A stretch of DNA of 64,000 bases. It comes from Polaromonas sp. GTDB taxonomy: Bacteria > Pseudomonadota > Gammaproteobacteria > Burkholderiales > Burkholderiaceae_C. A model generated the notes under the pieces. It was not told the origin of the DNA. It ran no database searches and was given only the letters and a program-made list of their open reading frames with translations. The stretch spans positions 62,001-126,000 of the forward strand of contig NZ_JAUXUP010000042.1 of the NCBI RefSeq assembly GCF_030680935.1, in the 5' to 3' direction. How positions within the stretch are numbered: position 1 is the first letter of the stretch; every line of letters begins with the position of its first letter. Made by a program: the position numbers and the translations under genes. Of the stretch, positions 24,928 to 39,879 are shown in pieces.

Positions 24928-25677
24928 TTAAACCGCCTGGCCAGCCAATGGCGTCGACTGCGTTCTGACCTGCTCGACGCGGCGGTTCACCAGGGCGGCA
25001 GCCAGCATCCACTTGGCGCGGCTCAGCCAGCCCAGGGCCAGGTCTGCGTGCTCTTTGTGGCTGTAAAAATGCTCAGGGTCATGGGCCACACCCCAGTCGT
25101 GCACCGGCATGCTGGTGGGGTCGGAATCGTGGTACTGCGCATGGGCGGCATGGCGGCCGTCCCAGAAATGCTGTCCGCGCACATGAACGCCGTAACCCAG
25201 AAGACTGCCCTGCTGCACCAGCAAGTCCGCCGCCCGGGTCTCCAGCAGGCTGTCGGCCACATAGGTATCGGTCTGAACCCAGCCGCCGTCCAGATACACC
25301 TCGCCCACCGCATGGGTGGTGGTGCTGTGGGGAGCATCAATGATTCCCTTGAGAAAAGTGCTGGGCAGACTGACAAAACGCAAGCGCGCCGGCACCCCGA
25401 CCGAACGCAGCATGGCTACAAGCAGCGTGCCTTTGGTATGGCAGTCCCCTCGACCCGCCCTCAGCACCGAAGCCGCAGTGACATGGTCAAAGCCCGCCAC
25501 GCAGCCAAAAGGCATCGCCTTGATGAAGTCATGCACACACACGGCCTTCTGCACATCGGTGGTCGCCAGTTGCGTGATACGTATGGCCTGGATTCTGAGC
25601 TTGGGATCGTCAAGGTCCAGCAGGCGGGTCGGTCGCAGCCATTCTTGCGGCTGGTCGTTTGGAAAAGGCAGGGTCAT
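24928..25677 (-). CDS. Transglutaminase-like cysteine protease-fold protein
   Basis: A 249-residue protein with a transglutaminase-like core: Cys in [30 protein letters not shown], His in [20 protein letters not shown] and Asp in the same block, forming the Cys-His-Asp triad. The C-terminal third has [25 protein letters not shown] and is not part of the core. No signal peptide, so cytoplasmic. ATG 25677 is preferred over TTG 25692. The role is unknown; bacterial members are usually peptidases or amidases rather than crosslinking enzymes. Confidence 0.82.
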
Positions 25678-25834
25678 GAAGGGCCGGGGCAATTTGGATT
25701 CAGCGCATTATGCAGGTCACGCGAAGCCAGCCCTGGTACACAGTTGTATACATGACACAGACTCAAGTTGCTGCGCGGAGTTGCCGGATTACCGCACAAT
25801 GTGGCGCTGGTCAACCAGGACAAGGACATCCACC

Positions 25835-26245
25835 ATGAGGCTTTTGCACACCATGCTGCGCGTTGGCAATCTGCAACGTGCGATTGATTTTTACACCCAG
25901 GTCCTCGGCATGAAACTGCTGCGCACCTCGGAAAATCCGGACTATAAATACAGCCTGGCCTTTGTCGGCTATGGCAACAACCCTGAGCATGCAGAGATCG
26001 AGCTGACCTGGAACTGGGACACCGACCACTACGACATGGGCACCGCCTACGGACACATTGCCCTCGGTGTGCCCGACGCCTATGCCGCCTGTGAAAAGAT
26101 CAAGGCAGCAGGCGGCAACGTCACGCGCGAGGCCGGGCCGGTCAAGGGCGGCAAAACCGTCATTGCGTTTGTCACCGACCCCGATGGATACAAGATAGAG
26201 CTGATCGAACGTGCCGAAGGCACGGTCGGCGCCGGGTTGCGCTAG
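25835..26245 (+). CDS. gloA: Lactoylglutathione lyase (glyoxalase I)
   Basis: Converts the methylglyoxal-glutathione hemithioacetal to S-lactoylglutathione. The 136-residue protein contains the four metal ligands expected for the nickel-type enzyme: His in [19 protein letters not shown], Glu in HAEIELTWN, His in [11 protein letters not shown] and Glu in GYKIELIER. The length matches bacterial GloA. ATG 25835 fits the alignment exactly. The TetR gene follows 13 bases after the stop, so they may be co-transcribed. Confidence 0.95.
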
Positions 26246-26258
26246 GAGCCTTCGTCGC

Positions 26259-26939
26259 ATGACACGGGCACATCCCAAAGCCGTCAAGGCGCCAGTCGGC
26301 CCTGCCGACAAAGTCCCGCGCAATACACGGCGTAGCCGGGAGCAGATGATGGCCGCCATCCACGCCGCAGCCATCGCCGAGTTCAGTGAAAACGGCCTCA
26401 AGGGCACCTCTACCCAGGCGATTGCCGCGCGCGCGGGATTGACCAAACCGCAACTGCATTACTACATCCAGGGCAAGGAGGAGCTTTACGGCGAGCTACT
26501 GATGTCGGTGGTGTCCGACTGGAAGGGCATGTTTGCCGCCGACTCCAGCGATCCGGCCAAAGTGCTGGGCGACTATATCCGCTCCAAAATCCATGTCGCC
26601 TTCGACAAGCCAGAGGTCTCACGCATCTTCACACGCGAAGTGCTGGATGGCGGCCACAACCTCGAAAAATTCTGGCCCGACTCGCGCCGCCGCACGCGCC
26701 AGAAGGTAGCCGTGATCAATGAATGGATCGCTCGCGGCCTGATGAAACCGGTAGATCCCCACACCCTGCTGATGAGCATCTGGGCCATGACACAGTTTTA
26801 TGCCGACTCAGCCGTCCAGGTGCAACAACTGCTGGAGCCACGCCAGCCTGCCTGGACGCCCGACCGGGACCGCCTGGTCAAGGAACTGACCACCCTGATC
26901 CTGCGCGGCTGCGGTATCAAGCTTCCACGCGAGACCTGA
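26259..26939 (+). CDS. TetR-family regulator, RutR-like
   Basis: A 226-residue repressor. The N-terminal HTH reads RSREQMMAAIHAAAIAEFSENGLKGTSTQAIAARAGLTKPQLHYYIQGKEELYGELL, with the recognition helix typical of the RutR/YcdC group. The C-terminal domain (FDKPEVSRIFTREVLDGGHNLE ... MSIWAMTQFYADSA) also matches that group, whose E. coli member controls pyrimidine use. ATG 26259 has AGGAG nearby. The catabolic cluster starts 214 bases downstream, with a RutR-like operator in the gap, so it is probably the cluster's regulator. Confidence 0.88.
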   Translation: MTRAHPKAVKAPVGPADKVPRNTRRSREQMMAAIHAAAIAEFSENGLKGTSTQAIAARAGLTKPQLHYYIQGKEELYGELLMSVVSDWKGMFAADSSDPAKVLGDYIRSKIHVAFDKPEVSRIFTREVLDGGHNLEKFWPDSRRRTRQKVAVINEWIARGLMKPVDPHTLLMSIWAMTQFYADSAVQVQQLLEPRQPAWTPDRDRLVKELTTLILRGCGIKLPRET

Positions 26940-26986
26940 CCCGACGCCCTTCCGGGGGTGCCCCTCTGGCATAACTTTTGCTAGAT

Positions 26987-27015
26987 TTGACCAATCGATC
27001 AGATTGATTGGTCAA
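26987..27015. promoter_or_regulatory. RutR-like operator upstream of the catabolic cluster
   Basis: A 29-bp palindrome, TTGACCAATC at the left and GATTGGTCAA at the right, with 13 of 14 base pairs symmetric about 27001. The arms equal the RutR half-sites TTGACCA and TGGTCAA, but the E. coli site has a 2-bp spacer whereas here 15 bp (including inner symmetric bases) separate them. It lies between the RutR-like gene and the first catabolic gene. Promoter boxes are not clear. Confidence 0.72.
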
Positions 27016-27153
27016 CATTGAAAAACCATTCCGCCACACCCTTGTCGATTCCCTGCAGCCGCTGCCCAAATCGGGGCGTGACTGTAACAATCCGCCGCCC
27101 GATGATCCAGCGTGGTGCATGGCAGCACCGCGTTGACCTGAGCTAGAACGGCA

Positions 27154-27741
27154 ATGCACGTTCTGGTCGTCTATTGCCACCCGGTTGAAACCAGCTTTCA
27201 TGCCGCGCTGCACCAGGAAGTGGTGAAAAACCTGTTGGCTGCCGGGCACACCGTCGATGACTGCGACCTGTACGCAGAAGGCTTCAACCCGGTGCTCTCG
27301 CGCGAGGAGCGCCTGGGTTACCACGAGGTGCCTTCCAACCAGTTGCCGCTGGCCGGGCATGTTGAGCGGCTGGCGCGCGCCGAAGCTATCGTGTTCTGCT
27401 TTCCCACCTGGTGTTTTGGCCTGCCGGCCATGCTCAAGGGTTATTTCGACCGACTCTTCATGCCGGGCGTGGCATTTGACATCAGTGACCCGGCCAATGT
27501 GAAGCCCATGCTGACCCACATCAAGCGCATCTCGGCGGTGGTGACCTATGGTCGTCCGCGCTGGGTGGCCTGGTACATGGGCGATCCGCCGCGCAAGATC
27601 ATCACGCGCTACATGCGGCGCCTGACCGGCAATGTGGCGCGGGTGGACTTTCATGCGCACTACCACATGAATGTGGCGACCGAACCCCAGCTCAAACGTT
27701 TCATGCAGCGGGTCAGCGCAGCCATGGCAAGGTTTGCATGA
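27154..27741 (+). CDS. Flavodoxin-like NAD(P)H oxidoreductase
   Basis: A 195-residue member of the NQO/KefF/MdaB flavodoxin-fold family that reduces quinones or other acceptors through FMN or FAD. It starts with MHVLVVYCHPVETSFHAAL (the phosphate-binding loop of the family), has VFCFPTWCFGLPAMLKGYFDRLFMPGVAF, the family signature, and VVTYGRPRW. It is the first gene of the cluster after the operator, and its stop overlaps the next start (ATGA). In this setting it might supply electrons to, or process products of, the Rieske oxygenases, but this is inference. Confidence 0.87.
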   Translation: MHVLVVYCHPVETSFHAALHQEVVKNLLAAGHTVDDCDLYAEGFNPVLSREERLGYHEVPSNQLPLAGHVERLARAEAIVFCFPTWCFGLPAMLKGYFDRLFMPGVAFDISDPANVKPMLTHIKRISAVVTYGRPRWVAWYMGDPPRKIITRYMRRLTGNVARVDFHAHYHMNVATEPQLKRFMQRVSAAMARFA

Positions 27742-29003
27742 ACGCGTCAACTGCGCTGCGCAATACGCGCTTGCCGCGCTGGCTGTTGCCCGCCCTTTGG
27801 CCGACCCATGCGGGTGAGCCGGTGCTGGCCGACCTCACGCTGGACGCCGGTCGCATCAGCGCTGTCCGGCCCGCTGCGCCTGGCCCGGCGCTGGTCGGTC
27901 ACTGGGACCTGCAAGGGGCCCCGGTGCTGCCGGGTCTGGTGGATGCACACACCCACATCGACAAAACCTTCACGCTGCCGCGTATCGGCGAAGTCCAGCC
28001 CGGCTTGCTGGGCGCCATCGACGCCATGATGGCCGACCGCCTGCACTGGACCCCCGCCGACGTGCACGCCCGCGCCAGCCGCGCGCTGGAGTGGGCCTGG
28101 GCCGCGGGCTGCGTGCACTTGCGCACCCATGTGGACTGGTGGGAGCCCGACACCACACCGGTGGCCTGGAGCGTGATGGCCGCCCTGGCCGCTGAATGGC
28201 AGGGCCGCATCCAGCTCGAGCAGGTCAGCCTGATCAAACTCACGCTGTTTCAGGACTTGGCGCAGGCGCGCAGGCTGGCCCGGCAGGTGGCTGCCACCGG
28301 CCCGCATGCGCTGCTGGGCGCGTTCGTACACACCAGCAACTGGGACGGGCAGGCCCTGCGCCATGTGTTCATCGCGGCCGGGGAAGCCGGGCTGGATGTC
28401 GATATACATGTGGACGAAGAGCTCAACCCCAAGGCTCAGGGGTTGGCAACGACTGCGACCATCCTGCGCGAAACCGGCTTCAAAGGCCGTGTGGTCTGCG
28501 GCCACAGCTGCGCGCTGGCGGCCCAGCCCGAAAGTCAGGCCCTGGCCACGCTGGATGCAGTGGCGCAGGTGCCCATCACCCTGGTCTCATTGCCCATCAC
28601 CAACCTGTTGCTGCAGGACGCTGTCACCGGCCGCACGCCACGCCAGCGCGGCATCACGCTGGTGAAAGAAGCGCGTGCACGCGGCATACCGGTGCTGCTG
28701 GCCAGCGACAACGTACAAGACCCGTTTTGCCGGGTGGGCAGCTACGACCCGGTGGAAGCGCTGGGGGCTGCGGTTCTGGCGGCGCAGCTGGATCACCCCT
28801 TCGACGTCTGGTCGGAAAGCCTGTGCCGCCGAGACTGGTTGCAGCGCGGCCCCGCAGCAGCCGCGTCCTTGGTGGGCGCTGCGGCAGACCTGGTCATTTT
28901 TACCGGTACCGACGCCTGGGGCTGGCCTTCCCGCAGCAGTCAGCGGGTGGTGCTGCGCAGCGGCGTTCCGATTCCCTCCTTGCCAGAAAGGCAGTTTGCA
29001 TGA
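27738..29003 (+). CDS. Amidohydrolase, cytosine/isoguanine deaminase-like
   Basis: A 421-residue metal-dependent hydrolase of the amidohydrolase superfamily, CodA branch. Metal ligands appear at HxH in LVDAHTHIDKTFTL, His in VDIHVDEELNP (followed by the acid Glu), His in VCGHSCALA and Asp in LLASDNVQDPF. CodA has the same order and spacing. Such enzymes deaminate cytosine, isoguanine or related N-heterocycles, or open cyclic amides. The start overlaps the preceding gene by four bases and the stop overlaps the next, giving tight coupling. Confidence 0.88.
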   Translation: MNASTALRNTRLPRWLLPALWPTHAGEPVLADLTLDAGRISAVRPAAPGPALVGHWDLQGAPVLPGLVDAHTHIDKTFTLPRIGEVQPGLLGAIDAMMADRLHWTPADVHARASRALEWAWAAGCVHLRTHVDWWEPDTTPVAWSVMAALAAEWQGRIQLEQVSLIKLTLFQDLAQARRLARQVAATGPHALLGAFVHTSNWDGQALRHVFIAAGEAGLDVDIHVDEELNPKAQGLATTATILRETGFKGRVVCGHSCALAAQPESQALATLDAVAQVPITLVSLPITNLLLQDAVTGRTPRQRGITLVKEARARGIPVLLASDNVQDPFCRVGSYDPVEALGAAVLAAQLDHPFDVWSESLCRRDWLQRGPAAAASLVGAAADLVIFTGTDAWGWPSRSSQRVVLRSGVPIPSLPERQFA

Positions 29004-29854
29004 TCCACGGTTACATCCCGCCCCACCGCTTCCTTCCCTACCTGAGCTGGACCGACATTGCCGCCCTGCCCGACCGCGAAAACACGGTGATTGTGTTGCC
29101 GGTAGGCGCCATCGAGCAGCACGGCCCGCACCTGCCCTGCTCGGTGGACAGCGTGATCTCGTCCGGTGTGCTGGGCAAGGCGCTGGAGCGCCTGCCGGCC
29201 GACATCCGCGCCTTCGGCCTGCCACCCATCACCTACGGCAAGTCTGACGAACACCTGCACTTCCCCGGCACACTCACGCTGACCGGTCCGACCCTGCTGG
29301 CCACCATCACCGAAATTGGCGAGTCGGTGTACCGCGCCGGTTTTCGCAAGCTGCTGCTGGCCAATGGCCACGGCGGCCAGCCCCAGGTGCTGGAGATGGC
29401 GGCGCGCGAATTGCGCCTGCGACATGGCGACTTTGTGATCGTGCCCTACCACGTCTCGCGCCTGGCCAACTCGTCCGGCAAATACATCTCTGAGCAGGAG
29501 CGCCGCCTCGCCATGCACGCCGGCCATTCAGAGACGGCGCTGATGCTGGCGCTGGCGCCCGATACGGTGCACATGGAGCGCGCGGTTGCCAATTTTCCGC
29601 CGGTGTTTCCAAGCAAGGTGTTGTCGGCCGACGGCCGCCCGGCCTGCGCCTGGACGGCGCGCGACTTTGGCCCCAGCGGCGTGATTGGCGATCCGTTTGG
29701 CGCCACCACCGAGCAAGGCCACGACATCCTCGACACGCTGGCCGACAGCTGGGTCCAGGCCCTGACCGATCTGTTTCATATGCAGTGGGTCACGCGTGAG
29801 GTCGAGTCCTGGGGTTATGGCCACCAGCAGGGCCATATCCAGCAGGCACTTTGA
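29000..29854 (+). CDS. Creatininase-family amidohydrolase
   Basis: A 284-residue creatininase/FapyPase-family protein. Zinc-site motifs: LPVGAIEQHGPHLPCSVDSV (Glu, His, Asp), LLLANGHGGQPQVLEMA and HAGHSETALMLAL (His, Glu). Known members open cyclic amides (creatinine) or remove formyl or amide groups from pyrimidine-type intermediates (for example ArfB in flavin synthesis). ATG 29000 overlaps the preceding stop. Position between a cytosine-deaminase-like enzyme and an importer suggests ring opening of a deaminated heterocycle. Confidence 0.9.
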   Translation: MIHGYIPPHRFLPYLSWTDIAALPDRENTVIVLPVGAIEQHGPHLPCSVDSVISSGVLGKALERLPADIRAFGLPPITYGKSDEHLHFPGTLTLTGPTLLATITEIGESVYRAGFRKLLLANGHGGQPQVLEMAARELRLRHGDFVIVPYHVSRLANSSGKYISEQERRLAMHAGHSETALMLALAPDTVHMERAVANFPPVFPSKVLSADGRPACAWTARDFGPSGVIGDPFGATTEQGHDILDTLADSWVQALTDLFHMQWVTREVESWGYGHQQGHIQQAL

Positions 29855-29931
29855 CGAGTTGCAGGCGCGCAACTTGCATCAGCTCCTTTGATTTTTTACC
29901 TGTGTTCAACCCTTCTATCCATGAGGTCACC

Positions 29932-30915
29932 ATGAAGAAACTTACCGCACGCACTTTTGTCGCCGCTACGCTCGGCCTGGCCCTGGCCGCCGGTGCCCAG
30001 GCACAGGAAAAGCTCACCTACATGACCAACTGGTACGCCCAGGCCGAACACGGGGGCTTCTACCAGGCGGTGGCCACCGGCATCTACAAGAAGTACGGGC
30101 TGGACGTGACCATCAAGATGGGCGGGCCGCAAGTCAACATCCTGCAGCTGATGGCCGCCGGCCAGACCGACTGCATCATGGGCTCCAGCGATCTGCAGAT
30201 GATGGTGGCGCGCAGCGGCGGGTTGCCGGTGGTGACGCTGGCAGCCGTGTTCCAGAAAGACCCGCAGGTCTTGATTGCCCATGAAGAAATCAAAAGCTTC
30301 GAAGACATGAAGGGCAAAACCATACTGATCGCGCCGTCCGCGCGGCAGGGCTACTGGCTCTGGCTGAAAAGCAAATACGGTTTTCAGGACGCCCAGACAC
30401 GGCCCTACACCTTCAACATCCAGCCCTTTGTGGCCGATAAAAACACAGTGCAGCAGGGTTACCTGACCTCCGAGCCCTTCGCCGTGCAGAAGGCTGGCGT
30501 CAAGGCCAACACCTTCCTGTTTGCCGACCACGGCTGGCCCACCTACGCGACCACCATCTCCTGCATGGAAGACACGGTCAAGAACCGCAGCAAGGCCATG
30601 GCAGCTTTTGTCAGGGGCACGATGGAAGGCTGGAAGAGCTACCTGGCCGACCCGGCGCCAGCCAACGTGCTGATCAAGAAGGACAACCCCAACATGAGTG
30701 ATGAGCAGCTGGCCTACAGCGTCGCCAAACTCAAGGAGATGGGCATTGTGACCGGCGGCGGCGCCAGCAAAAACGGCATCGGCAGCATGGACATTGACCG
30801 CGTCCGCAAGAACCACGCCTTTTTGCTGGACAACAAGCTGGTGGACGCCGGCAAGCTGGGGCCAACCACGGCCTACAACTTTGACTACATCAAGGACCTC
30901 AAGGTGATGCCTTGA
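29932..30915 (+). CDS. ABC transporter substrate-binding protein, NMT1/THI5 type (copy 1)
   Basis: A 327-residue periplasmic binding protein. Signal peptide MKKLTARTFVAATLGLALAAGAQA is followed by the NMT1/THI5 fold, whose known ligands include hydroxymethylpyrimidine precursors, sulfonates and other small organics. The segment YAQAEHGGFYQAVATGIYKK and GLDVT.KMGGPQVN recur in the second binding protein at 34626. The stop overlaps the ATPase start by one base. It is the binding subunit of the adjacent importer. Confidence 0.92.
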   Translation: MKKLTARTFVAATLGLALAAGAQAQEKLTYMTNWYAQAEHGGFYQAVATGIYKKYGLDVTIKMGGPQVNILQLMAAGQTDCIMGSSDLQMMVARSGGLPVVTLAAVFQKDPQVLIAHEEIKSFEDMKGKTILIAPSARQGYWLWLKSKYGFQDAQTRPYTFNIQPFVADKNTVQQGYLTSEPFAVQKAGVKANTFLFADHGWPTYATTISCMEDTVKNRSKAMAAFVRGTMEGWKSYLADPAPANVLIKKDNPNMSDEQLAYSVAKLKEMGIVTGGGASKNGIGSMDIDRVRKNHAFLLDNKLVDAGKLGPTTAYNFDYIKDLKVMP

Positions 30916-31730
30916 TGCGAGAGCTGTCAGCGGCCGTCTCTGCGGGCACGCCCGCCGTCGAGGTGCTGTCGGCGCACAAGACCTATCCCAACGGCACGGT
31001 CGCGCTGCAGCCGGTGGACCTGACCGTGCAGGAGGGCGAATTTGTCACCCTGCTCGGCCCCTCGGGCTGCGGCAAAAGCACGCTGCTGAAAATGGTCGCG
31101 GGCCTGCTCGCGCCTACCGATGGCCGCTTGCTGCTCTGGCGCAAGCCGGTCGAGCAGTTGCAGGAGGCCGGTCGCAAGCTGGCGTTTGTATTTCAGTCGG
31201 CCACACTCATGCCCTGGGCCAGCGTGTCGGCCAATGTCCGGCTGCCACTGGAGCTGGCCGGCGTGCCACGTGCCGAGGCTGACGGCCGGGTGGCCGAAGC
31301 GCTGGCCCTGGTCGGCTTGAGCAAATTTGCCGGCGCCCTGCCGCGCGCGCTGTCTGGCGGCATGCAGATGCGGGTGTCGATTGCGCGCAGCCTGGTGGTA
31401 CAGCCCAATCTGCTGCTGATGGACGAGCCTTTTGGCGCGCTCGACGAAATCACCCGCCACAAGCTCGACGCCGACCTGCTGGCCCTGTGGCAGGACAAAA
31501 AACTCACCGTGGTGTTTGTCACTCACTCGATCCACGAGGCGGTGTTTCTCTCCACCCGCGTGGTGATGATGGCCGCGCGCCCCGGCCGGATTGTGGAAGA
31601 AGTGCTGATCGACGAGCCTTATCCGCGCACACCCGACTTCATGGTCACGCCGCGGTTTGCCGCCTATGCCAAGCGCCTGCAGGACAGCCTGCTGCGCGCC
31701 AGCCTGGACGGCGACGAACCCGGTCATTGA
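30915..31730 (+). CDS. ABC transporter ATP-binding protein (SsuB/TauB/ThiZ-like)
   Basis: A 271-residue ATPase with Walker A LGPSGCGKSTLL, Q-loop VFQSATLMPW, signature LSGGMQMRVSIARSL, Walker B LLLMDEPFGALDEITR and the switch His in VFVTHSIHEAVFLS. It belongs to the nitrate/sulfonate/taurine/pyrimidine-precursor importer group. ATG 30915 is within one base of the binding-protein stop. The permease follows ten bases later. Confidence 0.95.
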   Translation: MRELSAAVSAGTPAVEVLSAHKTYPNGTVALQPVDLTVQEGEFVTLLGPSGCGKSTLLKMVAGLLAPTDGRLLLWRKPVEQLQEAGRKLAFVFQSATLMPWASVSANVRLPLELAGVPRAEADGRVAEALALVGLSKFAGALPRALSGGMQMRVSIARSLVVQPNLLLMDEPFGALDEITRHKLDADLLALWQDKKLTVVFVTHSIHEAVFLSTRVVMMAARPGRIVEEVLIDEPYPRTPDFMVTPRFAAYAKRLQDSLLRASLDGDEPGH

Positions 31731-31740
31731 GGAGAACCGC

Positions 31741-32547
31741 ATGCAACAAGCCCCCTTCTCGCTGACCTCCCCGCGTGTCCAGCGCATCCTCTACCCCGCC
31801 CTGGTGGCGCTGGTGCTGCTGGGCAGCTGGCAAGCGCTGGTCACAGGCTTCAAGCTGCCGCCCTATTTGGTGCCCTCGCCGCTGCTGATGTTCCAGACCC
31901 TGGTGACCGACTGGCAATCGCTGGGCGGCTCCTTGCTGGTCACGCTGAAAATCACCCTGCTGTCGTTTGCACTGGCCACCCTTATCGGTGTGTTGATCTC
32001 CTTCCTGTTTGTGCAAAGCCGCAAGATAGAAACCGCGCTGTTTCCCTATGCGGTTTTGTTGCAGGTCACACCCATCGTGGCAGTGGCGCCGCTCATCATC
32101 ATCTGGGTAAAAGACCCCACCGCTTCGCTGGTGTTATGCGCCGCGCTGGTCGCGCTGTTTCCCATCATCTCCAACACCACGCTGGGGCTGCGCAGCATAG
32201 ACCCCGACCTGCAGAGTTATTTTGTGATGAACCGCGCCAGCCGGTTGCAAACCCTGTGGCGCCTGCGCATACCGAGCGCCCTGCCCTATTTTTTTGGCGG
32301 TTTGCGCATCTCCAGCGGGCTGGCCCTGATAGGCGCGGTGGTGGCGGAATTTGTGGCTGGTACCGGCGGCGCAGCCACTGGCCTGGCCTACCAGATCCTG
32401 ATGGCGGGCTACCAGCTCAACATACCGCGCATGTTTGCGGCCCTGCTGCTGATCTCGCTGGCCGGTGTTGGGCTGTTTGCACTGATGGCCTGGCTGACAA
32501 AAATGGCGCTCGGCTCCTGGCATGCCAGCGAGCTGACCCGTGATTGA
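31741..32547 (+). CDS. ABC transporter permease (SsuC/TauC/ThiX-like)
   Basis: A 268-residue inner-membrane protein with about six hydrophobic segments and the coupling-helix region NRASRLQTLWRLRIPSALPYFFGGLRISSGLALIGAVVAEF, the EAA-type motif of this importer group. ATG 31741 has GAGGAGA a few bases upstream. It ends shortly before a dispersed repeat, after which the enzyme genes resume. Confidence 0.94.
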   Translation: MQQAPFSLTSPRVQRILYPALVALVLLGSWQALVTGFKLPPYLVPSPLLMFQTLVTDWQSLGGSLLVTLKITLLSFALATLIGVLISFLFVQSRKIETALFPYAVLLQVTPIVAVAPLIIIWVKDPTASLVLCAALVALFPIISNTTLGLRSIDPDLQSYFVMNRASRLQTLWRLRIPSALPYFFGGLRISSGLALIGAVVAEFVAGTGGAATGLAYQILMAGYQLNIPRMFAALLLISLAGVGLFALMAWLTKMALGSWHASELTRD

Positions 32548-32555
32548 CACCAAAT

Positions 32556-32606
32556 TTGCTATGTTATTGGTAGCTGCTTGCGCCCGAAGAATAAGGGCTG
32601 GAAGCC
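32556..32606 (+). repeat. Dispersed repeat copy 4
   Basis: TTGCTATGTTATTGGTAGCT, GCTTGCGCCC and ATAAGGGCTGGAAGCC. It separates the importer genes from the oxidase and Rieske genes inside the catabolic cluster, and ends 22 bases before the proposed GTG start of the oxidase gene. Confidence 0.82.
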
Positions 32607-32628
32607 AAAACTACATGAAAGATATCCG

Positions 32629-33999
32629 GTGAACGCCCCTGCCCACCCCATTGAACAACTACACGCCGCCCTGCCCGACCTGGACTGGGTCACCGACGAG
32701 GGCCGCATCGCGCGCCTGTCCCAGGACTTCTCCTGGTTCAGCCCGGTACTCAAGCGCCAACTCGCCGATAAACGCGCCGATGCGGTGGTACGGCCGCGCA
32801 GCGAGGACGAAATCCGCCGCCTCATCAGCCTGTGCGCCAAACTGCGCGTGCCTGTCACCCTGCGCGGCAGCGGCACCGGCAACTACGGCCAGGTGGTGCC
32901 GCTGCACGGTGGCGTCGTGCTCGACATGAGCGGCTACAACAGTTTTTTGTGGGCGCGCAATGGTGCGGGCCGGGCCCAGGCTGGCATGCGCCTGTCGGAC
33001 TTTGAAAAGGCCACCCGCCCCTTGGGCATGGAGCTGCGCTGCGTGCCGTCCACCTTCCGCAGCGCGACGCTGGGCGGGCTCTACGGTGGCGGGTTTGGCG
33101 GTGTCGGCTCGATCAACTATGGGCCGCTGGCTGCGCCCGGCAATGTGCTGGGCCTGAAAGCCATGACCTTTGAAGAAGAGCCGCAGATCATCGAACTGCG
33201 CGGCCCCGAGGCCCTGGCCATGCACCATATGTGGGGCAGCAACGGCCTGGTGCTTGAGCTCGAGATGGGCATGGCCCCCGTGCACGACTGGTCAGAACAC
33301 ATCGCCACCTTCACTACCTTTGACGAAGCGCTGGAGTTTGGCGACGCGGTCGCACGCGCGCCCGGCATCGTCAAAAAAGAGATCTGCCTGCTGGCCCAAC
33401 CCATCCCCGACTACATGAAGCAGCTGGCCGACTACCTGCCCGCCGGTTGCCATGCGGTGATTGTGCTGGTGGCCTCAAGCAGCGAGGCGGCCATGCTGGA
33501 ACTGGTGGCCCAGTACGGCGGCACAGTGACCTACCGCAAGACCGCAGAAGAGGTTGCTGCCAGCAACCGCACGCTGGTCGAATTCACCTGGAACCACACC
33601 ACGCTCAATGCCCTGAAGGTGGACAAGTCCATCACCTACCTGCAAAGCGCGTTTATTCCCGGCCAACACGTGGAGCAGGTCAAACGCATGGAAAAGTTGT
33701 TGGGCGGCGAGGTACTGATGCACTGCGAATACATACGCGGCATGGACGGCCTGGTCACCTGCACCGCGCTGCAGCTGGTGCGTTTCAGCACCGAAGAGCG
33801 CCTGCAGGAGATCATGAAGATTTACCGCGACAACGACGTGCGTATCAACGACCCGCATGTCTTCATCGTCGAAGACGGCAAGGCTGGCGGCAGCTTGTCG
33901 CAAGCCGTGCTGGACACCAAACACCGCTTCGACCCGCTGGGACTGCTCAACCCCGGCAAGGTGCGTGCCTGGCTCAAGCAACCGGCAGAGAATGTATGA
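32629..33999 (+). CDS. FAD-linked oxidase (GlcD/D-lactate dehydrogenase-like)
   Basis: A 456-residue protein of the vanillyl-alcohol-oxidase/FAD_binding_4 family. The FAD-binding part includes AVVRPRSEDEIRRLISLCAKLRVPVTLRGSGTGNYGQVVPLHGGVVLDMS and the later GGLYGGGFGGVGSINYG; the C-terminal substrate-cap domain ends in FDPLGLLNPGKVRAWL, the usual closing motif. It would oxidise an alcohol, hydroxyacid or amine. GTG 32629 is the best start; there is no ATG in frame before the domain. Its stop overlaps the RidA-like start. Confidence 0.86.
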   Translation: MNAPAHPIEQLHAALPDLDWVTDEGRIARLSQDFSWFSPVLKRQLADKRADAVVRPRSEDEIRRLISLCAKLRVPVTLRGSGTGNYGQVVPLHGGVVLDMSGYNSFLWARNGAGRAQAGMRLSDFEKATRPLGMELRCVPSTFRSATLGGLYGGGFGGVGSINYGPLAAPGNVLGLKAMTFEEEPQIIELRGPEALAMHHMWGSNGLVLELEMGMAPVHDWSEHIATFTTFDEALEFGDAVARAPGIVKKEICLLAQPIPDYMKQLADYLPAGCHAVIVLVASSSEAAMLELVAQYGGTVTYRKTAEEVAASNRTLVEFTWNHTTLNALKVDKSITYLQSAFIPGQHVEQVKRMEKLLGGEVLMHCEYIRGMDGLVTCTALQLVRFSTEERLQEIMKIYRDNDVRINDPHVFIVEDGKAGGSLSQAVLDTKHRFDPLGLLNPGKVRAWLKQPAENV

Positions 34000-34451
34000 C
34001 TGCGGGCCAGCCCATGGCCAGTTACGCAGCCGCGCGGCGCGCCGGCGACTTCGTCTTTGTCAGCGGCGTGGTCGCTGTTGATCCTGCGCGCAAGGTCATC
34101 CTGCAAAGCTACGAAGAGCTGCCCGGGCCCGCGCTGCTAGCCCTGCGCGGCCTCGGTTATGTCACTGGCCAGATGACCGTCGATATTTACGAGGCCCCAG
34201 CGGTGGCGCAAAGCTGGTTTGTGCTGGAGCGGATTCGCCAGATCGCGCAGGAGCATGGCGGCGACATGGCCGATGTCGTCAAGCTGGTGCAGTATTTCCG
34301 CGATCTGCGGCACTACCCGTTTTACAACCGCGTGCGCGGGCTTTTCTATCCGGGCGGCGCCCCCGTCAGCACGGTGGTGGAAGTGTCGCGTTTCATGCCC
34401 GGCGACGGGGCCTTGATTGAAGTGGAGGCGACGATTTATCTGCCGCAATAA
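33996..34451 (+). CDS. RidA/YjgF-family protein lacking the usual catalytic arginine
   Basis: A 151-residue RidA-fold protein: GDFVFVSGVVAVDP, VTGQMTVDIYEAP, MADVVKLVQYFRDLRHYPFYNRVRGLFYPGGAPVSTVVEVSRFMPGDGALIEVEATIYLP. In imine-hydrolysing RidA the motif is ARSCVQV with Arg105; here the equivalent is VSTVVEV, so that Arg is Ser. This places it in a divergent Rid subfamily, many of which sit beside amidohydrolases in heterocycle degradation operons. ATG 33996 overlaps the oxidase stop. Confidence 0.85.
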   Translation: MTAGQPMASYAAARRAGDFVFVSGVVAVDPARKVILQSYEELPGPALLALRGLGYVTGQMTVDIYEAPAVAQSWFVLERIRQIAQEHGGDMADVVKLVQYFRDLRHYPFYNRVRGLFYPGGAPVSTVVEVSRFMPGDGALIEVEATIYLPQ

Positions 34452-34625
34452 GACCCGGCAGACCGCCCTGCAAGGCATGAAATTTGCATCTTGTTTTTCA
34501 GAGTAGAAGCTGGCAGTGACTCCCAAGGTCACGGGTCATTGCTCTGGCAGCGTCATGAGGCATCCCCTCCGCGCTGTGCGCCGTTTTGGTGCTTTGTGTT
34601 CAACCAACATAACCGGAGAATCTGC
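34452..34625. other. 174-base gap before the second binding protein
   Basis: No ORF or repeat. It is A/T-richer near 34480-34510 and has a TTGCAT and a TAGAAG box, though their 14-bp spacing is short for a promoter. A secondary promoter for the binding-protein and Rieske genes is possible but not shown. Confidence 0.4.
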
Positions 34626-35573
34626 ATGAAAACTCTTTTCGCGACCCTGTGTTTTGCCGCCGCCGCGAGCCTGGCTCAGGCGCAAGACAAAGTCACCTTC
34701 CTCACCTCCTGGTACGCGCAGGCCGAGCATGGGGGCTACTACCAGGCCATCGCCACCGGCATCTACAAGAAACACGGCCTGGACGTCACCGTCAAGATGG
34801 GCGGCCCGCAGGTCAACGCGATCCAGATCATCGCCGCCGGCCAGGCCGACTTCATCATGGGCAAGGACTTTCAAACCCTGTCGGCCATCGAGAACGGCGT
34901 GCCCCTGACCACGGTTGCGGCCGTGTTCCAGATGGAGCCGCAGGGCATGGTCACACATCCCGACGTGAACAGCCTGGCCGACCTCAAGGGCAAAACCATC
35001 CTGATGGCCACCAGTGGCCGCACCAGCTGGTGGCCCTGGCTGAAGATCAAGCACGGCCTGAAGGACGACCAGACCCGTCCCTACAGCTTCAGCATGGCGC
35101 CCTTCTTCGCAGACAAAAATGTGGCGCAGCAAGGTTACCCCGGCTCCGAGCCTTTCATCGCCGAAAAAGCCGGCCAGAAAATCAAGTTTTTCCTGTTTGC
35201 CAATGAGGGTTACCCGCCGTACGGCAACACCATCGTCACGACGCGGCAGATGATCAAGGACAAGCCCGACGTCGTGCAACGTTTCGTCAAGGCCACCCTG
35301 GAAGGCTGGAAAAGTTATCTCGAAAATCCCGCGCCGGGCAATGCCCTGATCAAGCAGGACAACCCCAAGATGGAGGACGAGCTGATCGCCTACTCGGTCA
35401 AGACCATGAAGGAGATGAAGTTCCTCGACAGCGGCGATGCAGCCAAGGCGGGCGCCGGCGTGATGACAGACGCGCGCTGGAAACAGACCTACGACCTGAT
35501 GGTCACCAGCGGGCAGCTCAAGCCGAACCCGAACTGGCAACAGGCCTACACGCTGCAGTTCCTGAAGAAGTAG
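34626..35573 (+). CDS. ABC transporter substrate-binding protein, NMT1/THI5 type (copy 2)
   Basis: A 315-residue periplasmic binding protein with signal peptide MKTLFATLCFAAAASLAQAQ. It is clearly paralogous to copy 1: WYAQAEHGGYYQAIATGIYKK, GLDVTVKMGGPQVN and WKSYL.NPAP.N.LIK.DNP recur. No second ATPase or permease is nearby, so both binding proteins may feed the one importer. Differences in the likely pocket (for example MGKDFQTLSAIENG here against MGSSDLQMMVARSG) suggest different ligands. ATG 34626 has GGAGA upstream. Confidence 0.91.
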   Translation: MKTLFATLCFAAAASLAQAQDKVTFLTSWYAQAEHGGYYQAIATGIYKKHGLDVTVKMGGPQVNAIQIIAAGQADFIMGKDFQTLSAIENGVPLTTVAAVFQMEPQGMVTHPDVNSLADLKGKTILMATSGRTSWWPWLKIKHGLKDDQTRPYSFSMAPFFADKNVAQQGYPGSEPFIAEKAGQKIKFFLFANEGYPPYGNTIVTTRQMIKDKPDVVQRFVKATLEGWKSYLENPAPGNALIKQDNPKMEDELIAYSVKTMKEMKFLDSGDAAKAGAGVMTDARWKQTYDLMVTSGQLKPNPNWQQAYTLQFLKK

Positions 35574-35585
35574 GGGAAGGCAAGC

Positions 35586-36638
35586 ATGCTCGTCACCCAA
35601 CAACCCGTGCTGCGGCGCTTCTGGTATGCCGTGATGGCTATGGACAAACTGGCAGCCGGACCGCAACCCTTCACCCTGCTGGGCGAAAACATCGTGATTT
35701 TCAAACGCGCCGACGGCAGCCCCGCTGCGCTGCGCGACCGGTGTTGCCACCGTACCGCCAAACTTTCCAAGGGCACGGTGCAAGGAGACTACATCGTGTG
35801 TGGCTACCACGGCTGGACTTACGATGGCAGCGGTGCCTGCGTGAAGATTCCACAAAACCCGGACATGCAAATTCCGGCGGGTGCGCGCGTGCCGGCTTTT
35901 TATTGCCAGGAAAAATTTGGCTACGCGTGGGTCGCGCTCGATGAGCCCTTGGTACCGCTGATGGACACGCCCGAAGACAGCGACCCGGCCTACCGGCGTA
36001 TTCACCAGTTTGACGAGGCCTGGAACACCAGCGCGCTGCGCATGATGGAAAACTCCTTCGACACAGCGCATTTTGCGTTTGTGCACAAGGGCACTTTCGG
36101 TCAGGGCAACCAGCCCAAGCCGACATTTTTTGAACTGCGTGAAACCGGCTACGGTTTTGAGGCCGAAGCCATCGTGCCGATCAACAACCCGCCCGAGTCG
36201 CACCGCATCACCGGCAGCACAGCACCCACCACCACGCGGCACTTCTTCAACCAGTGGCACATGCCGTTTTTGCGCCGGCTCGGCCTGGCCTATCCGAACG
36301 GGCTCAAACACACCATCTTCACCTGCGCCACACCGATTGACGATGAGCGCATCCAGCTTATCCAGTGGCTGTACCGCAATGACACCGAGGCCGATTGCCC
36401 TGCGGCCGAGCTCAATGCCTGGGATACACGTGTGGTGATGGAAGACAAGGAGATTCTGGAATCGGTCAACGCTGATGCGCCAGTTGACGTGACGCGCCGG
36501 GACGAACAGAGCATGCTGAGCGACCGGCCCGGCATGATCATGCGCAAACGCCTGCTGGACCTGCTGAAGGAACACGGCGAGACCGAAGTCCATGGCTGGG
36601 GCCGCGTCATACCGATCCGGGAGGCCGCCACATGCTGA
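35586..36638 (+). CDS. Rieske non-haem iron oxygenase, VanA/NdmA-like (copy 1)
   Basis: A 350-residue aromatic-ring-hydroxylating or O-/N-demethylating oxygenase alpha subunit. The Rieske centre is RDRCCHRTAKLSKG and CGYHGWTYD (C-x-H near residue 53 and C-x2-H near 72). The mononuclear iron site begins in MMENSFDTAHFAFVHKGTFG (bridging Asp and His ligands, about residues 156-168). Length and layout match monocomponent VanA, dicamba- and caffeine-demethylase subunits. ATG 35586 lies 12 bases after the binding-protein stop. No reductase gene is nearby. Confidence 0.92.
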   Translation: MLVTQQPVLRRFWYAVMAMDKLAAGPQPFTLLGENIVIFKRADGSPAALRDRCCHRTAKLSKGTVQGDYIVCGYHGWTYDGSGACVKIPQNPDMQIPAGARVPAFYCQEKFGYAWVALDEPLVPLMDTPEDSDPAYRRIHQFDEAWNTSALRMMENSFDTAHFAFVHKGTFGQGNQPKPTFFELRETGYGFEAEAIVPINNPPESHRITGSTAPTTTRHFFNQWHMPFLRRLGLAYPNGLKHTIFTCATPIDDERIQLIQWLYRNDTEADCPAAELNAWDTRVVMEDKEILESVNADAPVDVTRRDEQSMLSDRPGMIMRKRLLDLLKEHGETEVHGWGRVIPIREAATC

Positions 36639-37708
36639 CCACCCAACAGGCGGTGCTACGCCGCTTCTGGTACGCGCTGATGCCGATCTCGCGGCTTGAC
36701 GCCGGTCCCCAGCCCTTCACCCTGATGGGCGAAGAGCTGGTGCTCTGGAAGCAGGCCGACGGCACACCGGCCGCACTGCGCGACCGCTGCTGCCACCGCA
36801 CCGCCAAACTGTCCAAAGGCACGGTTCAAGGCGACCACATTGTGTGCGGCTACCACGGCTGGACATACGACTGCACCGGCAGCTGCGTGAAAATTCCGCA
36901 AAACCCGGACATGCAGATTCCGGCCGGTGCGCGCGTGCCGTCTTTTCGCTGCCAGGAGAAATACGGCTATGTCTGGGTGGCGCTGGAAGACCCATTGCGA
37001 CCGATTCCGCACTTTCCGGAAGACGGCGCGCCCGGTTACCGCCGCATTTTCCAGTTTTACGAAGAGTGGAAAACCAGCCCGCTGCGCATGATGGAAAACT
37101 CCTTCGACAACTCGCACTTCTCGTTTGTGCACAAGGCCAACTTCGGCATTCTGGAGCAGCCCAAGCCCGCGCCTTATGAGTTTCGCGAGACCGACTACGG
37201 TTTTGAGGCAGAAACCACCGTGCCGATACGCAACCCCGCGCAGGGACACCGCGTGACGGGTAGCACCGAAGACATCACCCACCGGCACCTGATCAACCGT
37301 TATTACCTGCCGTTTGCGCGGCGGTTTGGCTGTACCTACCCGGCCAGCGGCGTGCACCACATCATCTACAACTGCGCCACGCCGATCGACGACGAACGCA
37401 TGATGCTGGTGCAGTGGCTGTACCGCAATGACAGCGAAGAAGCGTGCAGCACGCAGGAGCTGATTGACTGGGACGCTGCCATCACCGCCGAAGACCGCGA
37501 CATTTTGGAGGCGACCGACGCCGACGCCTGCGTGGACACCACACGCCGCGTCGAGTTTCACATGCCGTCGGACAAGCCCGGCCTGGTCATTCGCAAACAA
37601 TTGCTGGACCTGCTGCACGCGCATGGTGAAGAAGAAATCCACCGGGGCTCGCCGTCCATGCAGAAAAAGCGCATCGCTATTGAGGTGGACACAGGGCCGG
37701 CAGCATGA
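36632..37708 (+). CDS. Rieske non-haem iron oxygenase, VanA/NdmA-like (copy 2)
   Basis: A 358-residue paralogue of the preceding oxygenase, overlapping it by seven bases. The N-terminal 110 residues are almost the same (RDRCCHRTAKLSKGTVQGD, CGYHGWTYDC, KIPQNPDMQIPAGARVP), while the catalytic half differs (MMENSFDNSHFSFVHKANFG), suggesting a tandem duplication with changed substrate choice. Both metal sites look intact. The stop overlaps the next start (ATGA). The pair recalls the adjacent NdmA/NdmB N-demethylases of caffeine breakdown, which use one shared reductase. Confidence 0.92.
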   Translation: MLTTQQAVLRRFWYALMPISRLDAGPQPFTLMGEELVLWKQADGTPAALRDRCCHRTAKLSKGTVQGDHIVCGYHGWTYDCTGSCVKIPQNPDMQIPAGARVPSFRCQEKYGYVWVALEDPLRPIPHFPEDGAPGYRRIFQFYEEWKTSPLRMMENSFDNSHFSFVHKANFGILEQPKPAPYEFRETDYGFEAETTVPIRNPAQGHRVTGSTEDITHRHLINRYYLPFARRFGCTYPASGVHHIIYNCATPIDDERMMLVQWLYRNDSEEACSTQELIDWDAAITAEDRDILEATDADACVDTTRRVEFHMPSDKPGLVIRKQLLDLLHAHGEEEIHRGSPSMQKKRIAIEVDTGPAA

Positions 37709-39126
37709 AGCTGCTGATCCGCAACGCCGCGGCGATTCTGACCGGGCTGTCCGGCAGCGCCGCGCGCCATGCCGGCCCGGACATCCGGGTACGCGATGGA
37801 AAAATTACAGCGATGGGCCAGCTCAGTACCGAGCCCGGCGAGCGCCAGATCGATGCCAGCGGCTGCGTGGTCTACCCGGCCTGGGTCAACACCCACCATC
37901 ACCTGTTCCAGTCGCTGCTCAAGGGCGACCCGCTGGGCATCAACGCCACGCTGACGCCCTGGCTCAGCGCCACGCCCTTCCGGCTGCGGCCCGCCATGGA
38001 CGAGGACATGTTCCGGCTGGCCGCACGAATTGGCCTGGTTGAGCTGGCGCTTTCTGGCTGCGCCACGGTGGCCGATCACAATTACCACTACTGGCCCGGC
38101 ATGCCTTTCGACAGCTCGGCGATTTTGTTTGAAGAAGCCGAAGCGCTGGGCCTGCGTTTTGTGTTGTGCCGGGGTGGAGGCACGCTCTCGCGCATTGCGT
38201 CCGACAACCTGCCCCCCAGCCTGCGGCCCGAGACACTGGACGGCTACCTGGCTGACATCGAACGGGTGGCGGCGCGGTTTCACGACAGCGCACCTGACAG
38301 CATGCGGCGCGTGGTAGTAGCGCCAACCACACCGCCGCATTCGATGCGGCCCGAAGAACTGCGCGAGTGTGCCGCCTTTGCGCGCAGCCATGGTCTGCGG
38401 CTGCATTCCCACCTGTCAGAGACCGTGCATTACCACGACACGGTGCAGGCGCAGCACGGCATCACGCCGGTGCGTTTTGCAGAGAGTGTTGGCTGGCTCG
38501 GGCCTGATGTCTGGTTTGCCCACCTGGTCAAGCTCGATGCCGACGAGATTGCGCTGCTGGGCGCGACGGGTACCGGCATTGCCCACTGCCCGCAAAGCAA
38601 TGGCCGGCTAGGCAGCGGGATTGCACCGGTGCGCGCGCTGGAAGATGCGGGCGCCCCGGTGTCCATCGGCGTAGACGGCGCCGCCTCCAACGAAGCGGCC
38701 GACATGTTGTCTGAAACCCATGCCGCCTGGCTGATGCAGCGCGCCCGCGCGGGCGAGGCCACGCTGGCCCAGCACCGCGGTGGCCAGGGCGAGGCGCAGG
38801 CGGCGCAGGCCGCCACGGTGGAAGACGTGGTGCGCTGGGGCACGGCGGGCGGCGCGAAGGTACTGGGCCTGCCCGCCGTTGGCACGCTGGCAGAAGGACA
38901 GGCGGCCGACATCGCGATCTACGCGCTGGACCGGGATCCGCGCTACTTCGGCCTGCACGACCCGGCCATTGGCCCGGTGGCCAGCGGCGGCAGCGCACAC
39001 CTCAAGGCCCTGCTCATCGGCGGGCGGGAGATTGTGCGTGATGGCGCCCTGCCTGGGCTGGACCTGCAGGAGCTGGGCCGACAGGCCAGGGCGGCGGTGG
39101 CACGGTTGGTGACCACGCCGTATTGA
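37705..39126 (+). CDS. Amidohydrolase, 8-oxoguanine deaminase/AtzB-like
   Basis: A 473-residue amidohydrolase of the TrzN/AtzB/8-oxoguanine-deaminase group. Metal-site residues are visible in YPAWVNTHHHLFQSLLKGD (HxH), LHSHLSETVHYHD (His and Glu), WFAHLVKLD (His) and GVDGAASNEAADML (Asp), the last being a signature of 8-oxoguanine deaminase. It should deaminate or hydrolyse a purine-like or triazine-like ring. It is the last gene of the cluster, coupled by a four-base overlap to the second oxygenase. Confidence 0.9.
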   Translation: MKLLIRNAAAILTGLSGSAARHAGPDIRVRDGKITAMGQLSTEPGERQIDASGCVVYPAWVNTHHHLFQSLLKGDPLGINATLTPWLSATPFRLRPAMDEDMFRLAARIGLVELALSGCATVADHNYHYWPGMPFDSSAILFEEAEALGLRFVLCRGGGTLSRIASDNLPPSLRPETLDGYLADIERVAARFHDSAPDSMRRVVVAPTTPPHSMRPEELRECAAFARSHGLRLHSHLSETVHYHDTVQAQHGITPVRFAESVGWLGPDVWFAHLVKLDADEIALLGATGTGIAHCPQSNGRLGSGIAPVRALEDAGAPVSIGVDGAASNEAADMLSETHAAWLMQRARAGEATLAQHRGGQGEAQAAQAATVEDVVRWGTAGGAKVLGLPAVGTLAEGQAADIAIYALDRDPRYFGLHDPAIGPVASGGSAHLKALLIGGREIVRDGALPGLDLQELGRQARAAVARLVTTPY

Positions 39127-39216: not shown

Positions 39217-39879
39217 CTAGGAGCCCGGGCGGGGCAGCCCACAGGCCTGCCGCGCCAGATCACTGACCCGCGCCCAGTCGCCCCGCGCCAGTGCGTCGGC
39301 GGGTACCAGCCACGAGCCCCCCACACAGGCCACATTGGGCAGCGCCAAAAACTCGGCCGCGTTGGCAGCCGTGATGCCGCCGGTGGGGCAAAACACCACA
39401 TCACCAAAAGGCCCGTTCCAGGCCTTGAGCAGCGCCAGCCCGCCGGCCTGCAGGGCGGGGAAGAACTTCAGCTCGGTAAAGCCGTCTTCCTGCGCCGCCA
39501 TGATCTCGCTGCCGGTGGCCACACCGGGCAGCAGCGGCAGGTGGGCGTCGCGGCAAGCGGTGCCTACCGCGTGGGTGTAACCGGGGCTGACGATAAAACG
39601 GGCCCCGGCCATGGCACAGGCCTGCACGTCGGCAGCGCTGCGCGCAGTGCCCGCGCCTATCACCGCCTCGGGTACATCGCGCGCAATCGCCTCAATACAG
39701 GCCAGCGCCTGCGGCGTACGCAAAGTCACTTCCAGCATGCGGATGCCGCCGGCCACCAAAGCCCGGGCCAGCGGCACGGCGTGCGCCACATCGGTCAGCA
39801 CAATCACCGGAATAACCGGCGCATCGCGCATGACCTGCAGCGCCGTGAGCGCCGAATCGACATCAACTTTCACATCCAT
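39217..39879 (-). CDS. eda: 2-dehydro-3-deoxy-6-phosphogluconate aldolase
   Basis: Second Entner-Doudoroff enzyme: splits KDPG to pyruvate and glyceraldehyde 3-phosphate. The 220-residue barrel has [32 protein letters not shown] (Glu), [11 protein letters not shown] and the Schiff-base Lys in [13 protein letters not shown], then [17 protein letters not shown] 39879 has AAGGAG upstream and overlaps the edd stop by ten bases. It is not closely similar to the dgoA aldolase at 13.8 kb. Confidence 0.95.

Follow-up and report, generated by a model that had tools for sequence, protein, structure and literature searches.

A candidate pterin-scavenging gene cluster with a xanthine riboswitch and sigma-54-type promoter elements in Polaromonas sp.

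We analysed a stretch of 64,000 nucleotides (the window) from Polaromonas sp. (assembly GCF_030680935.1, contig NZ_JAUXUP010000042.1, positions 62,001 to 126,000). It contains a cluster of thirteen open reading frames (ORFs), all on the plus strand at 26259-39126, which, judging from sequence, probably encodes a nitrogen-scavenging pathway for pterins (isoxanthopterin, pterin-6-carboxylate and other folate-derived pteridines). Pterins are the ring part of folate vitamins and of many pigments. The basis of this assignment is the gene content, the protein families assigned with Pfam and NCBIfam profile searches, conservation, and a riboswitch and promoter-like elements identified by sequence. 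The riboswitch divides the cluster. Module B extends from the gene of a TetR-family regulator to that of a Rid-family protein; module A consists of the genes for a binding protein (SBP2), two Rieske oxygenases (RO1 and RO2) and an amidohydrolase (AH2). Candidate sigma-54-type elements precede both modules. Neither these nor the riboswitch figured in a preliminary description of the cluster, which had proposed import, oxygenation, deamination and ring opening of some nitrogen heterocycle. That general scheme fits all our findings; the clade of AH2 and the title of structure entry 6v42 point more narrowly to pterins.

The amidohydrolase AH2 and the flavin enzyme

AH2 (37705..39126, plus strand; Amidohydro_1) scores 742.5 bits with the NCBIfam equivalog PRK12393 and thus reaches its cut-off of 543, the model's own name being merely "amidohydrolase family protein". 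Its best match in PDB is 2paj (656.3 bits, AH2 residues 3-469), and the motifs THHH, HSHLSE, FAHLV and GVDG, which presumably bear the metal ligands, are present. The two amidohydrolases of the cluster had been assigned to the cytosine and 8-oxoguanine deaminase branches. The first assignment held for AH1, the amidohydrolase of module B, whereas AH2 lies outside the 8-oxoguanine deaminases: it scores 404.8 bits with PRK08203 (cut-off 532), and in a quick maximum-likelihood tree of 95 rows, including 2paj and 7ww2 as references, the 8-oxoguanine deaminase 7ww2 falls outside the AH2/2paj group with a support (SH-like approximate likelihood ratio test, SH-aLRT) of 100. In the same tree the position of 2paj is within the AH2 family, amid Paraburkholderia rows, and the rows nearest to it (L076 and L084 in our numbering of loci) come from loci with a riboswitch, binding-protein (SBP), Rieske and ATP-binding cassette (ABC) transporter genes. 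By sequence, then, AH2 belongs to the 2paj clade.

The 2paj entry is reportedly the isoxanthopterin deaminase described by Hall and co-workers in 2010. That protein is reportedly a lone metagenomic enzyme, whereas AH2 lies in an operon with oxygenases, a transporter and a riboswitch. Passages of PMC5270733 describe Sargasso Sea enzymes of the 2paj kind as deaminating isoxanthopterin and pterin-6-carboxylate. A pterin deamination step is supported by this sequence kinship of AH2.

The flavin adenine dinucleotide (FAD) oxygenase or oxidase of module B (32629..33999, plus strand, FAD_binding_4; the GTG start at 32629 is assumed, a TTG at 32578 being possible) is a homologue of 6v42. A phmmer search gave 351.8 bits over residues 8-448, against only 36.4 for the next entry. 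With the predicted model of the enzyme (mean predicted local distance difference test score, pLDDT, 80), 6v42 was also the top Foldseek match (E 6.3e-42, template modelling score 0.86, 39% identity). The enzyme is thus homologous to 6v42/6v43 over nearly its full length, but at about 39% identity. According to its title, the 6v42 entry is a "flavin oxygenase with cofactor bound involved in folate catabolism", so that the FAD enzyme, independently of AH2, again points to pteridines.

The xanthine riboswitch

An aptamer of the xanthine riboswitch class (NMT1 RNA, Rfam RF03054) was found at 34496..34549 on the plus strand, within the 174-base gap before the SBP2 gene. With 50.7 bits it exceeds the gathering score of 36 (E 2.6e-8 in a search of the window), and it shares the invariant columns of the RF03054 core. 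Covariation among 78 aligned copies, 73 of them distinct, was 0.443 against 0.194 in shuffles, the alignment being fitted to the model. The minimum-energy structure of the 145-nucleotide fold of riboswitch and leader lacks the first helix of the aptamer, and no clear switch was seen in it. In eleven of the 80 loci compared below, two riboswitches are arranged divergently at a distance of 145-237 bases (L070, at 5542-5611 on the minus and 5849-5901 on the plus strand, and L042, L045, L048, L049, L058, L060, L061, L067, L077, L080); each copy has a sigma-54-like element scoring at least 9.5.

According to passages of PMC7373994, xanthine (3.7 uM) and urate (25 uM) are ligands of the class, and members other than the present one were shown to bind xanthine and to switch expression off. 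The genes associated with it there, encoding NMT1 proteins, hcaE-type dioxygenases and PRK12393 amidohydrolases, are of the kinds found in module A, so that some genes of a cluster first described as uncharacterised had already been tied to the riboswitch. The functions of the dioxygenases are given in those passages as not established, the genes are read as purine oxidation, unlike the pterin reading preferred here, and module B does not appear. The main text of PMC7373994, as far as covered, contains neither "pterin" nor "RpoN", and "isoxanthopterine" occurs only as a purchased chemical; a search of that text for sigma, promoter, nitrogen and RpoN gave no statement on sigma-54. None of the pterin or dioxygenase terms occurred in the searched text of PMC8266621.

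The purine reading can be extended to the whole cluster: guanine, 8-oxoguanine or a similar purine would be imported, oxidised by the Rieske enzymes as HpxD is thought to do, and converted by AH2 to urate or xanthine, with the riboswitch providing product feedback. Apart from the ligands of the class and the view of its authors, this agrees with the methylxanthine demethylases NdmA and NdmB being the best PDB matches of the Rieske proteins, and with the presence of a Tsx-type channel family in 16 and an NCS2 permease family in seven of the 80 loci (one representative of each was identified). In L020, module A is preceded at a distance of a few kilobases by allantoicase and ureidoglycolate lyase genes (1525-3017), in keeping with a connection to the urate path. 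Nevertheless we consider the purine route unlikely. AH2 is not an 8-oxoguanine deaminase by tree or cut-off, the title of 6v42 points to folate, and a second purine route would be redundant, as the host genome already encodes elsewhere XdhAB, guanine deaminase and urate-path proteins (hydroxyisourate hydrolase, PuuE allantoinase and an OHCU-decarboxylase/amidohydrolase fusion). The same genes mean that xanthine made by a pterin-degrading cluster could be used. Adenosine deaminase is likewise encoded elsewhere in the genome, and a PuuD-like protein is a guess by eye.

Rieske oxygenases and the oxidation step

RO1 (35586..36638, plus strand; PF00355 and PF19112) carries the Rieske and iron-site motifs, and its best PDB match is NdmA. 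RO2 (36632..37708, plus strand) is 66% identical to RO1. Other loci carry oxidising enzymes of other types. On a Rhizobium leguminosarum plasmid, a PaoABC-type molybdenum hydroxylase lies beside genes for a creatininase, a transporter, a "cytosine deaminase", a FAD protein, a flavodoxin-type oxidoreductase and RidA, the proteins being 37-49% identical to their window counterparts where matched. A 2-oxoglutarate (2OG) oxygenase gene lies beside module-B-like genes on Klebsiella and Agrobacterium plasmids. Three unrelated enzyme types (Rieske, 2OG-iron and molybdenum) may therefore replace one another at the oxidation step, an interchange that would be compatible with hydroxylation at an electron-poor carbon of the ring.

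The match to NdmA, together with creatininase and AtzC-type relatives, might also indicate breakdown of methylxanthines, creatinine or triazines, compounds considered in the preliminary description. A homologue of AH1 (58.8% identity) occurs on the atrazine plasmid pADP-1 of Pseudomonas sp. ADP (L158, 9890-11221), where it adjoins a BMP-type ABC transporter near atzD/atzE. We hold such substrates to be very improbable. The creatininase-family amidase (29000..29854, plus strand; PF02633, 240.1 bits) scores 101.2 bits with the creatininase equivalog TIGR04448 (cut-off 235), AH1 (27738..29003, plus strand; Amidohydro_3, metal-ligand motifs present) scores 329.4 bits with the cytosine deaminase model NF005759 (cut-off 403), and AH2 scores far higher with 2paj (656 bits) than with triazine hydrolase (at most 177) or atrazine chlorohydrolase (99). 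Methylxanthine demethylation was rejected as the principal function because the evidence from AH2 and from the FAD enzyme favours pterins; the rut, creatininase and cytosine deaminase systems were rejected because the respective cut-offs are not reached.

Conservation and linkage of the two modules

Conservation was assessed in the loci of 80 AH2 relatives from named genomes, the best among at least 490; these loci are close, biased and not independent, and several contigs are short. An SBP gene is present in 73 of the 80, ABC transporter genes in 72 and the riboswitch in 66, some contigs of the remaining 14 being too short to tell. A Rieske gene (at least 50% identity) occurs in 64 loci, a Rieske or 2OG-iron oxygenase gene in 75 and both types in 18; the five loci free of oxygenases are L034, L039, L063, L071 and L075. 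There are two Rieske genes in 13 loci, and a match to a VanB-type reductase in 28. The whole set is found in one relative from the same genus (L149), with the order kept and 74-97% identity per gene, and most of its parts recur in window order in Ramlibacter and Caenimonas loci. The gene set is thus more than a chance adjacency. In other sampled genomes its parts are patchily distributed: PRK12393 is above cut-off in 20 of 399 sampled genomes of the family, the FAD enzyme is found at E 1e-40 in seven of 300 of the order, and the riboswitch is above cut-off in seven of 87 of the genus and two of 369 of the class (own genome included in each case).

According to the preliminary description, a lack of joint conservation in other genomes would refute its interpretation. 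The comparison did not refute it, as 75 of the 80 deaminase loci have a Rieske or 2OG oxygenase. Module B (at least two of four marker genes), however, is present in 16 of the 80 loci only and also occurs without module A. A complete module B in window order is carried by a plasmid of the Arabidopsis leaf isolate Comamonadaceae bacterium OTU4NAUVB1 (L157, 5524-13859); there, as in L143, AH2 and Rieske genes are absent from the stretch examined. In genomes G338, G340 and G366 (L146-L148), module B faces a riboswitch and a Rieske gene (52-55% identity), and the stretch examined contains no AH2. We conclude that there are two modules, sometimes joined.

Accordingly, one may suppose two independent neighbouring pathways, module A for pterins or purines and module B for another heterocycle (a pyrimidine, hydantoin or lumazine), with a shared ABC transporter. 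Each module has its own promoter element and regulator, module B stands alone in L143 and L157, and the riboswitch model found no copy in L143, L157, L159 or L161. Full independence nevertheless seems improbable to us. The modules are fused in one order in the Ramlibacter/Caenimonas-type loci and in L149. In the enteric loci of Klebsiella, Raoultella and Rouxiella they are divergent neighbours, genes for SBP2, AH2 and a 2OG oxygenase facing those for the reductase, AH1, Rid, creatininase, SBP1, ATPase, permease and FAD enzyme. In L135-L137 the genes for SBP1, ATPase, permease, AH2 and the FAD enzyme form one cluster, with the FAD gene adjoining that of AH2. In the window, SBP1 (29932..30915; PF09084) and SBP2 (34626..35573; PF09084), both NMT1/THI5-type binding proteins, are 51% identical (blastp), and SBP2 comes without a separate ATPase or permease; those of the cluster (30915..31730, PF00005, and 31741..32547, PF00528; all four genes on the plus strand) follow SBP1.

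Some loci deserve separate mention. The plasmid p2B17602 from a blood isolate of Klebsiella pneumoniae (L160) carries a pterin-type cluster with the riboswitch, a 2OG oxygenase, AH2 and module-B genes, and three further Klebsiella records in the plasmid collection searched, one of them chromosome-sized, match both the FAD enzyme and AH2. In L063 and L074 (about 6.9-12.5 kb), the neighbours of AH2 are an SBP-ATPase-permease set of another kind and a distantly related Rieske gene (31%); these loci may represent a variant system.

Promoter elements and nitrogen control

Module A is preceded by a candidate sigma-54-type element AGGCATG-N4-TTGCA (34473..34488, plus strand; score 10.5 of 12), whose GC ends 9 nucleotides before the aptamer. 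Such elements, of the pattern GG-N10-GC, were sought upstream of 86 riboswitch copies, 78 from the AH2 loci and eight from the genus; the loci are related and not independent. An element scoring at least 10 of 12 precedes 72 of the 86, compared with 0.23% of base shuffles. For 66 copies the GC of the strong element ends 8-11 nucleotides before the aptamer (this holds in 55 of the 66 riboswitch-bearing AH2 loci), and transcripts would thus begin near the base of the first aptamer helix. Of 67 regions upstream of riboswitches, 20 contain NtrC-like palindromes, where base shuffling would predict 0.96, and genes for both RpoN and NtrC are present in the genome. A dyad search also found a palindrome GGACGG-N6-CCGTCC upstream of riboswitches in 11 of the 67 regions.

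A second candidate element, CTGGCA-N6-TTGCT (26966..26982, plus strand), precedes flav, the first gene of module B after the regulator. There are 19 places with flav, including the window; the 11 in which it heads module B were kept, and L046, L073, L106, L128, L129 and L135-L137 were dropped (L106 and L136 being the identical place). The element is present in ten of the 11. It is followed by the dyad TTGACCA-N15-TGGTCAA (26987..27015), a probable TetR operator that overlaps the predicted transcription start of module B. A strict search for TTGACC[AT]...[AT]GGTCAA in L006-L085 and L135-L152 gave the window only. The conserved dyad emerged afterwards, when the regions ahead of flav were read: it is present in seven of the 11 loci, 22-23 nucleotides from the first base of the sigma-54 element, and its arms carry matching changes in L016 and L143. 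The same arrangement of element and dyad is visible by eye in L157. The half-sites of the window dyad equal those of the RutR box. The RutR-like operator proposed earlier therefore exists as a dyad, conserved at a fixed offset in some relatives, but with a spacing far wider than that of the RutR box. Taken together, the anatomy of the cluster supports nitrogen-type control and import.

Proposed pathway

From these data we infer the substrate, the order of reactions, the ligands of the regulators, the electron donor and each enzymatic step as follows. Under nitrogen limitation, RpoN and an activator, probably NtrC, would fire the two promoters, the first of which would be freed when a ring-type intermediate releases the RutR-like repressor. 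Pteridines would enter by way of the NMT1-type binding proteins and the single ABC transporter. RO1 and RO2 would hydroxylate the pyrazine ring (C7/C6), the electrons being supplied either by flav or by a VanB-type reductase encoded outside the cluster, and AH2 would take off the 2-amino group. The FAD oxygenase, the creatininase-like amidase and AH1 would then open and hydrolyse the deaminated ring, releasing ammonia. Finally, the riboswitch, situated almost at the 5' end of the mRNA, would turn off SBP2-RO1-RO2-AH2 as xanthine, urate or a look-alike product accumulates.

A number of observations weigh against this pterin pathway. The top PDB matches of the Rieske proteins are NdmA/NdmB and SxtT/SxtDIOX and not pterin enzymes; the cluster contains no reductase for them, and the genome's best match to the L020 reductase, at 36% identity, adjoins a different Rieske gene. 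The folate link of 6v42 comes from the title of the entry, 2paj is an isoxanthopterin deaminase by attribution to Hall et al., and the authors of the riboswitch study favoured purines in the passages cited. A palindrome search revealed no NtrC-like site ahead of either window promoter. Neither a sigma-54-like element nor a dyad was observed before module B in L057, L078, L082 and L083, where the first gene of the module differs from flav. Several Ramlibacter loci that otherwise resemble the cluster lack AH1, and the loci of Ramlibacter pallidus HM2 (L012) and Caenimonas sedimenti (L016) show none; in L135-L137 AH2 occurs with the transporter and FAD genes but with no Rieske gene. Together with the limited co-occurrence of the modules and the separate module B in L143 and L157, the latter suggests that the modules may serve different substrates.

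The Rid-family protein (33996..34451, plus strand; PF01042, Ribonuc_L-PSP) is a further difficulty. RidA has an arginine-bearing motif at the place where the window protein, by eye, has APVSTVVEV, and the latter thus apparently lacks a counterpart of Arg105. Arginine at RidA position 105 is tied to deaminase activity in passages of PMC8113886, and hence an imine-deaminase role of the Rid protein is doubtful.

Much more tentatively, we suggest that in these bacteria the riboswitch chiefly senses pterin breakdown. Its ligand might be a deaminated pteridine that the cluster makes (for instance 7-oxolumazine or tetraoxypteridine) or the xanthine to which such a pteridine is converted when its ring contracts, and the genes under its control might form an undescribed RpoN-driven pathway of pterin mineralisation with interchangeable Rieske, 2OG-iron or molybdenum hydroxylation of the ring. 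Formation of xanthine from a pteridine by ring contraction is said to have been described in McNutt's 1960s work on Alcaligenes.

Related systems

The individual parts of the cluster are of known kinds with known relatives. The literature covered on pterin and folate catabolism, 2PAJ, 6V42/6V43, the riboswitch, hpx and rut/NtrC, with subscription papers mostly outside its scope, contained no description of the whole set, which to this extent may still be called uncharacterised. The pterin reading, a joined module B, sigma-54 and RutR-like control, and a link between the xanthine riboswitch, isoxanthopterin deaminase and nitrogen control were not found there either.

One related system is folate degradation in Variovorax sp. 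F1, another member of the Comamonadaceae. Passages of PMC9513972 describe its pterin deaminase as a protein of the cytosine deaminase branch, with endoribonuclease genes downstream of the relatives in V. paradoxus. This resembles the adjacency of AH1 and Rid genes in L082, L083 and L160, which is not seen in the window, and by analogy AH1 might act as a further pterin deaminase of wider range, the likeness being one of description. The Variovorax route ends at deaminopteroate, no Rieske protein, flavin enzyme, importer or regulator is described in those passages, and the fate of the deaminated products is called an open question. The hpxDE system of K. pneumoniae for hypoxanthine, as presented in passages of PMC7373994, likewise employs an oxygenase on a purine-like ring to obtain nitrogen; it differs in the proposed substrate and was compared with the cluster by description.

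A further relative is the rut operon of E. coli. It serves the use of uracil as nitrogen source and is controlled by NtrC and RpoN. A RutR-like repressor, RutR-type half-sites, and a flavin oxygenase with a Rid protein suggest a similar logic of control and chemistry. However, the cluster is not rut, as had been stated from the start: the regulator scores 127.5 bits with the RutR equivalog TIGR03613 (cut-off 368), the Rid protein 49.2 bits with the RutC equivalog (cut-off 169.1), and the flavin enzyme has the FAD_binding_4 fold and not that of the luciferase-type RutA.

The mineralisation of the pterin ring in nature is a long-standing gap. The cluster joins three loose ends, the isoxanthopterin deaminase, the xanthine riboswitch and the "folate catabolism" flavin enzyme, with nitrogen-type control and conservation in named isolates. 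It suggests the actual job of the genes under the xanthine riboswitch and makes each step of the proposed pathway directly testable.

Layout of the cluster and neighbouring genes

All thirteen genes of the preliminary description were recovered as plus-strand ORFs, and the profile searches agree with the families named in it. The RutR-like regulator (26259..26939, plus strand; 226 amino acids, with an alternative GTG start possible at 26211) has a TetR_C_3 (YcdC) C-terminus (113 bits). The product of flav (27154..27741, plus strand) is a flavodoxin-fold NAD(P)H oxidoreductase (Flavodoxin_2, 98.5 bits). After the regulator, six of the 11 junctions overlap by 1-7 bases, so that the earlier statement that most overlap, by one to ten bases, barely holds; the other five are gaps of 10, 12, 77, 81 and 174 bases. 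A glyoxalase-family ORF lies upstream on the plus strand, within 25316-26245, and genes for KDPG (2-keto-3-deoxy-6-phosphogluconate) aldolase and an ILVD/EDD-family dehydratase of the Entner-Doudoroff type follow on the minus strand (39220-41690). The content of these neighbours is unrelated to the cluster.

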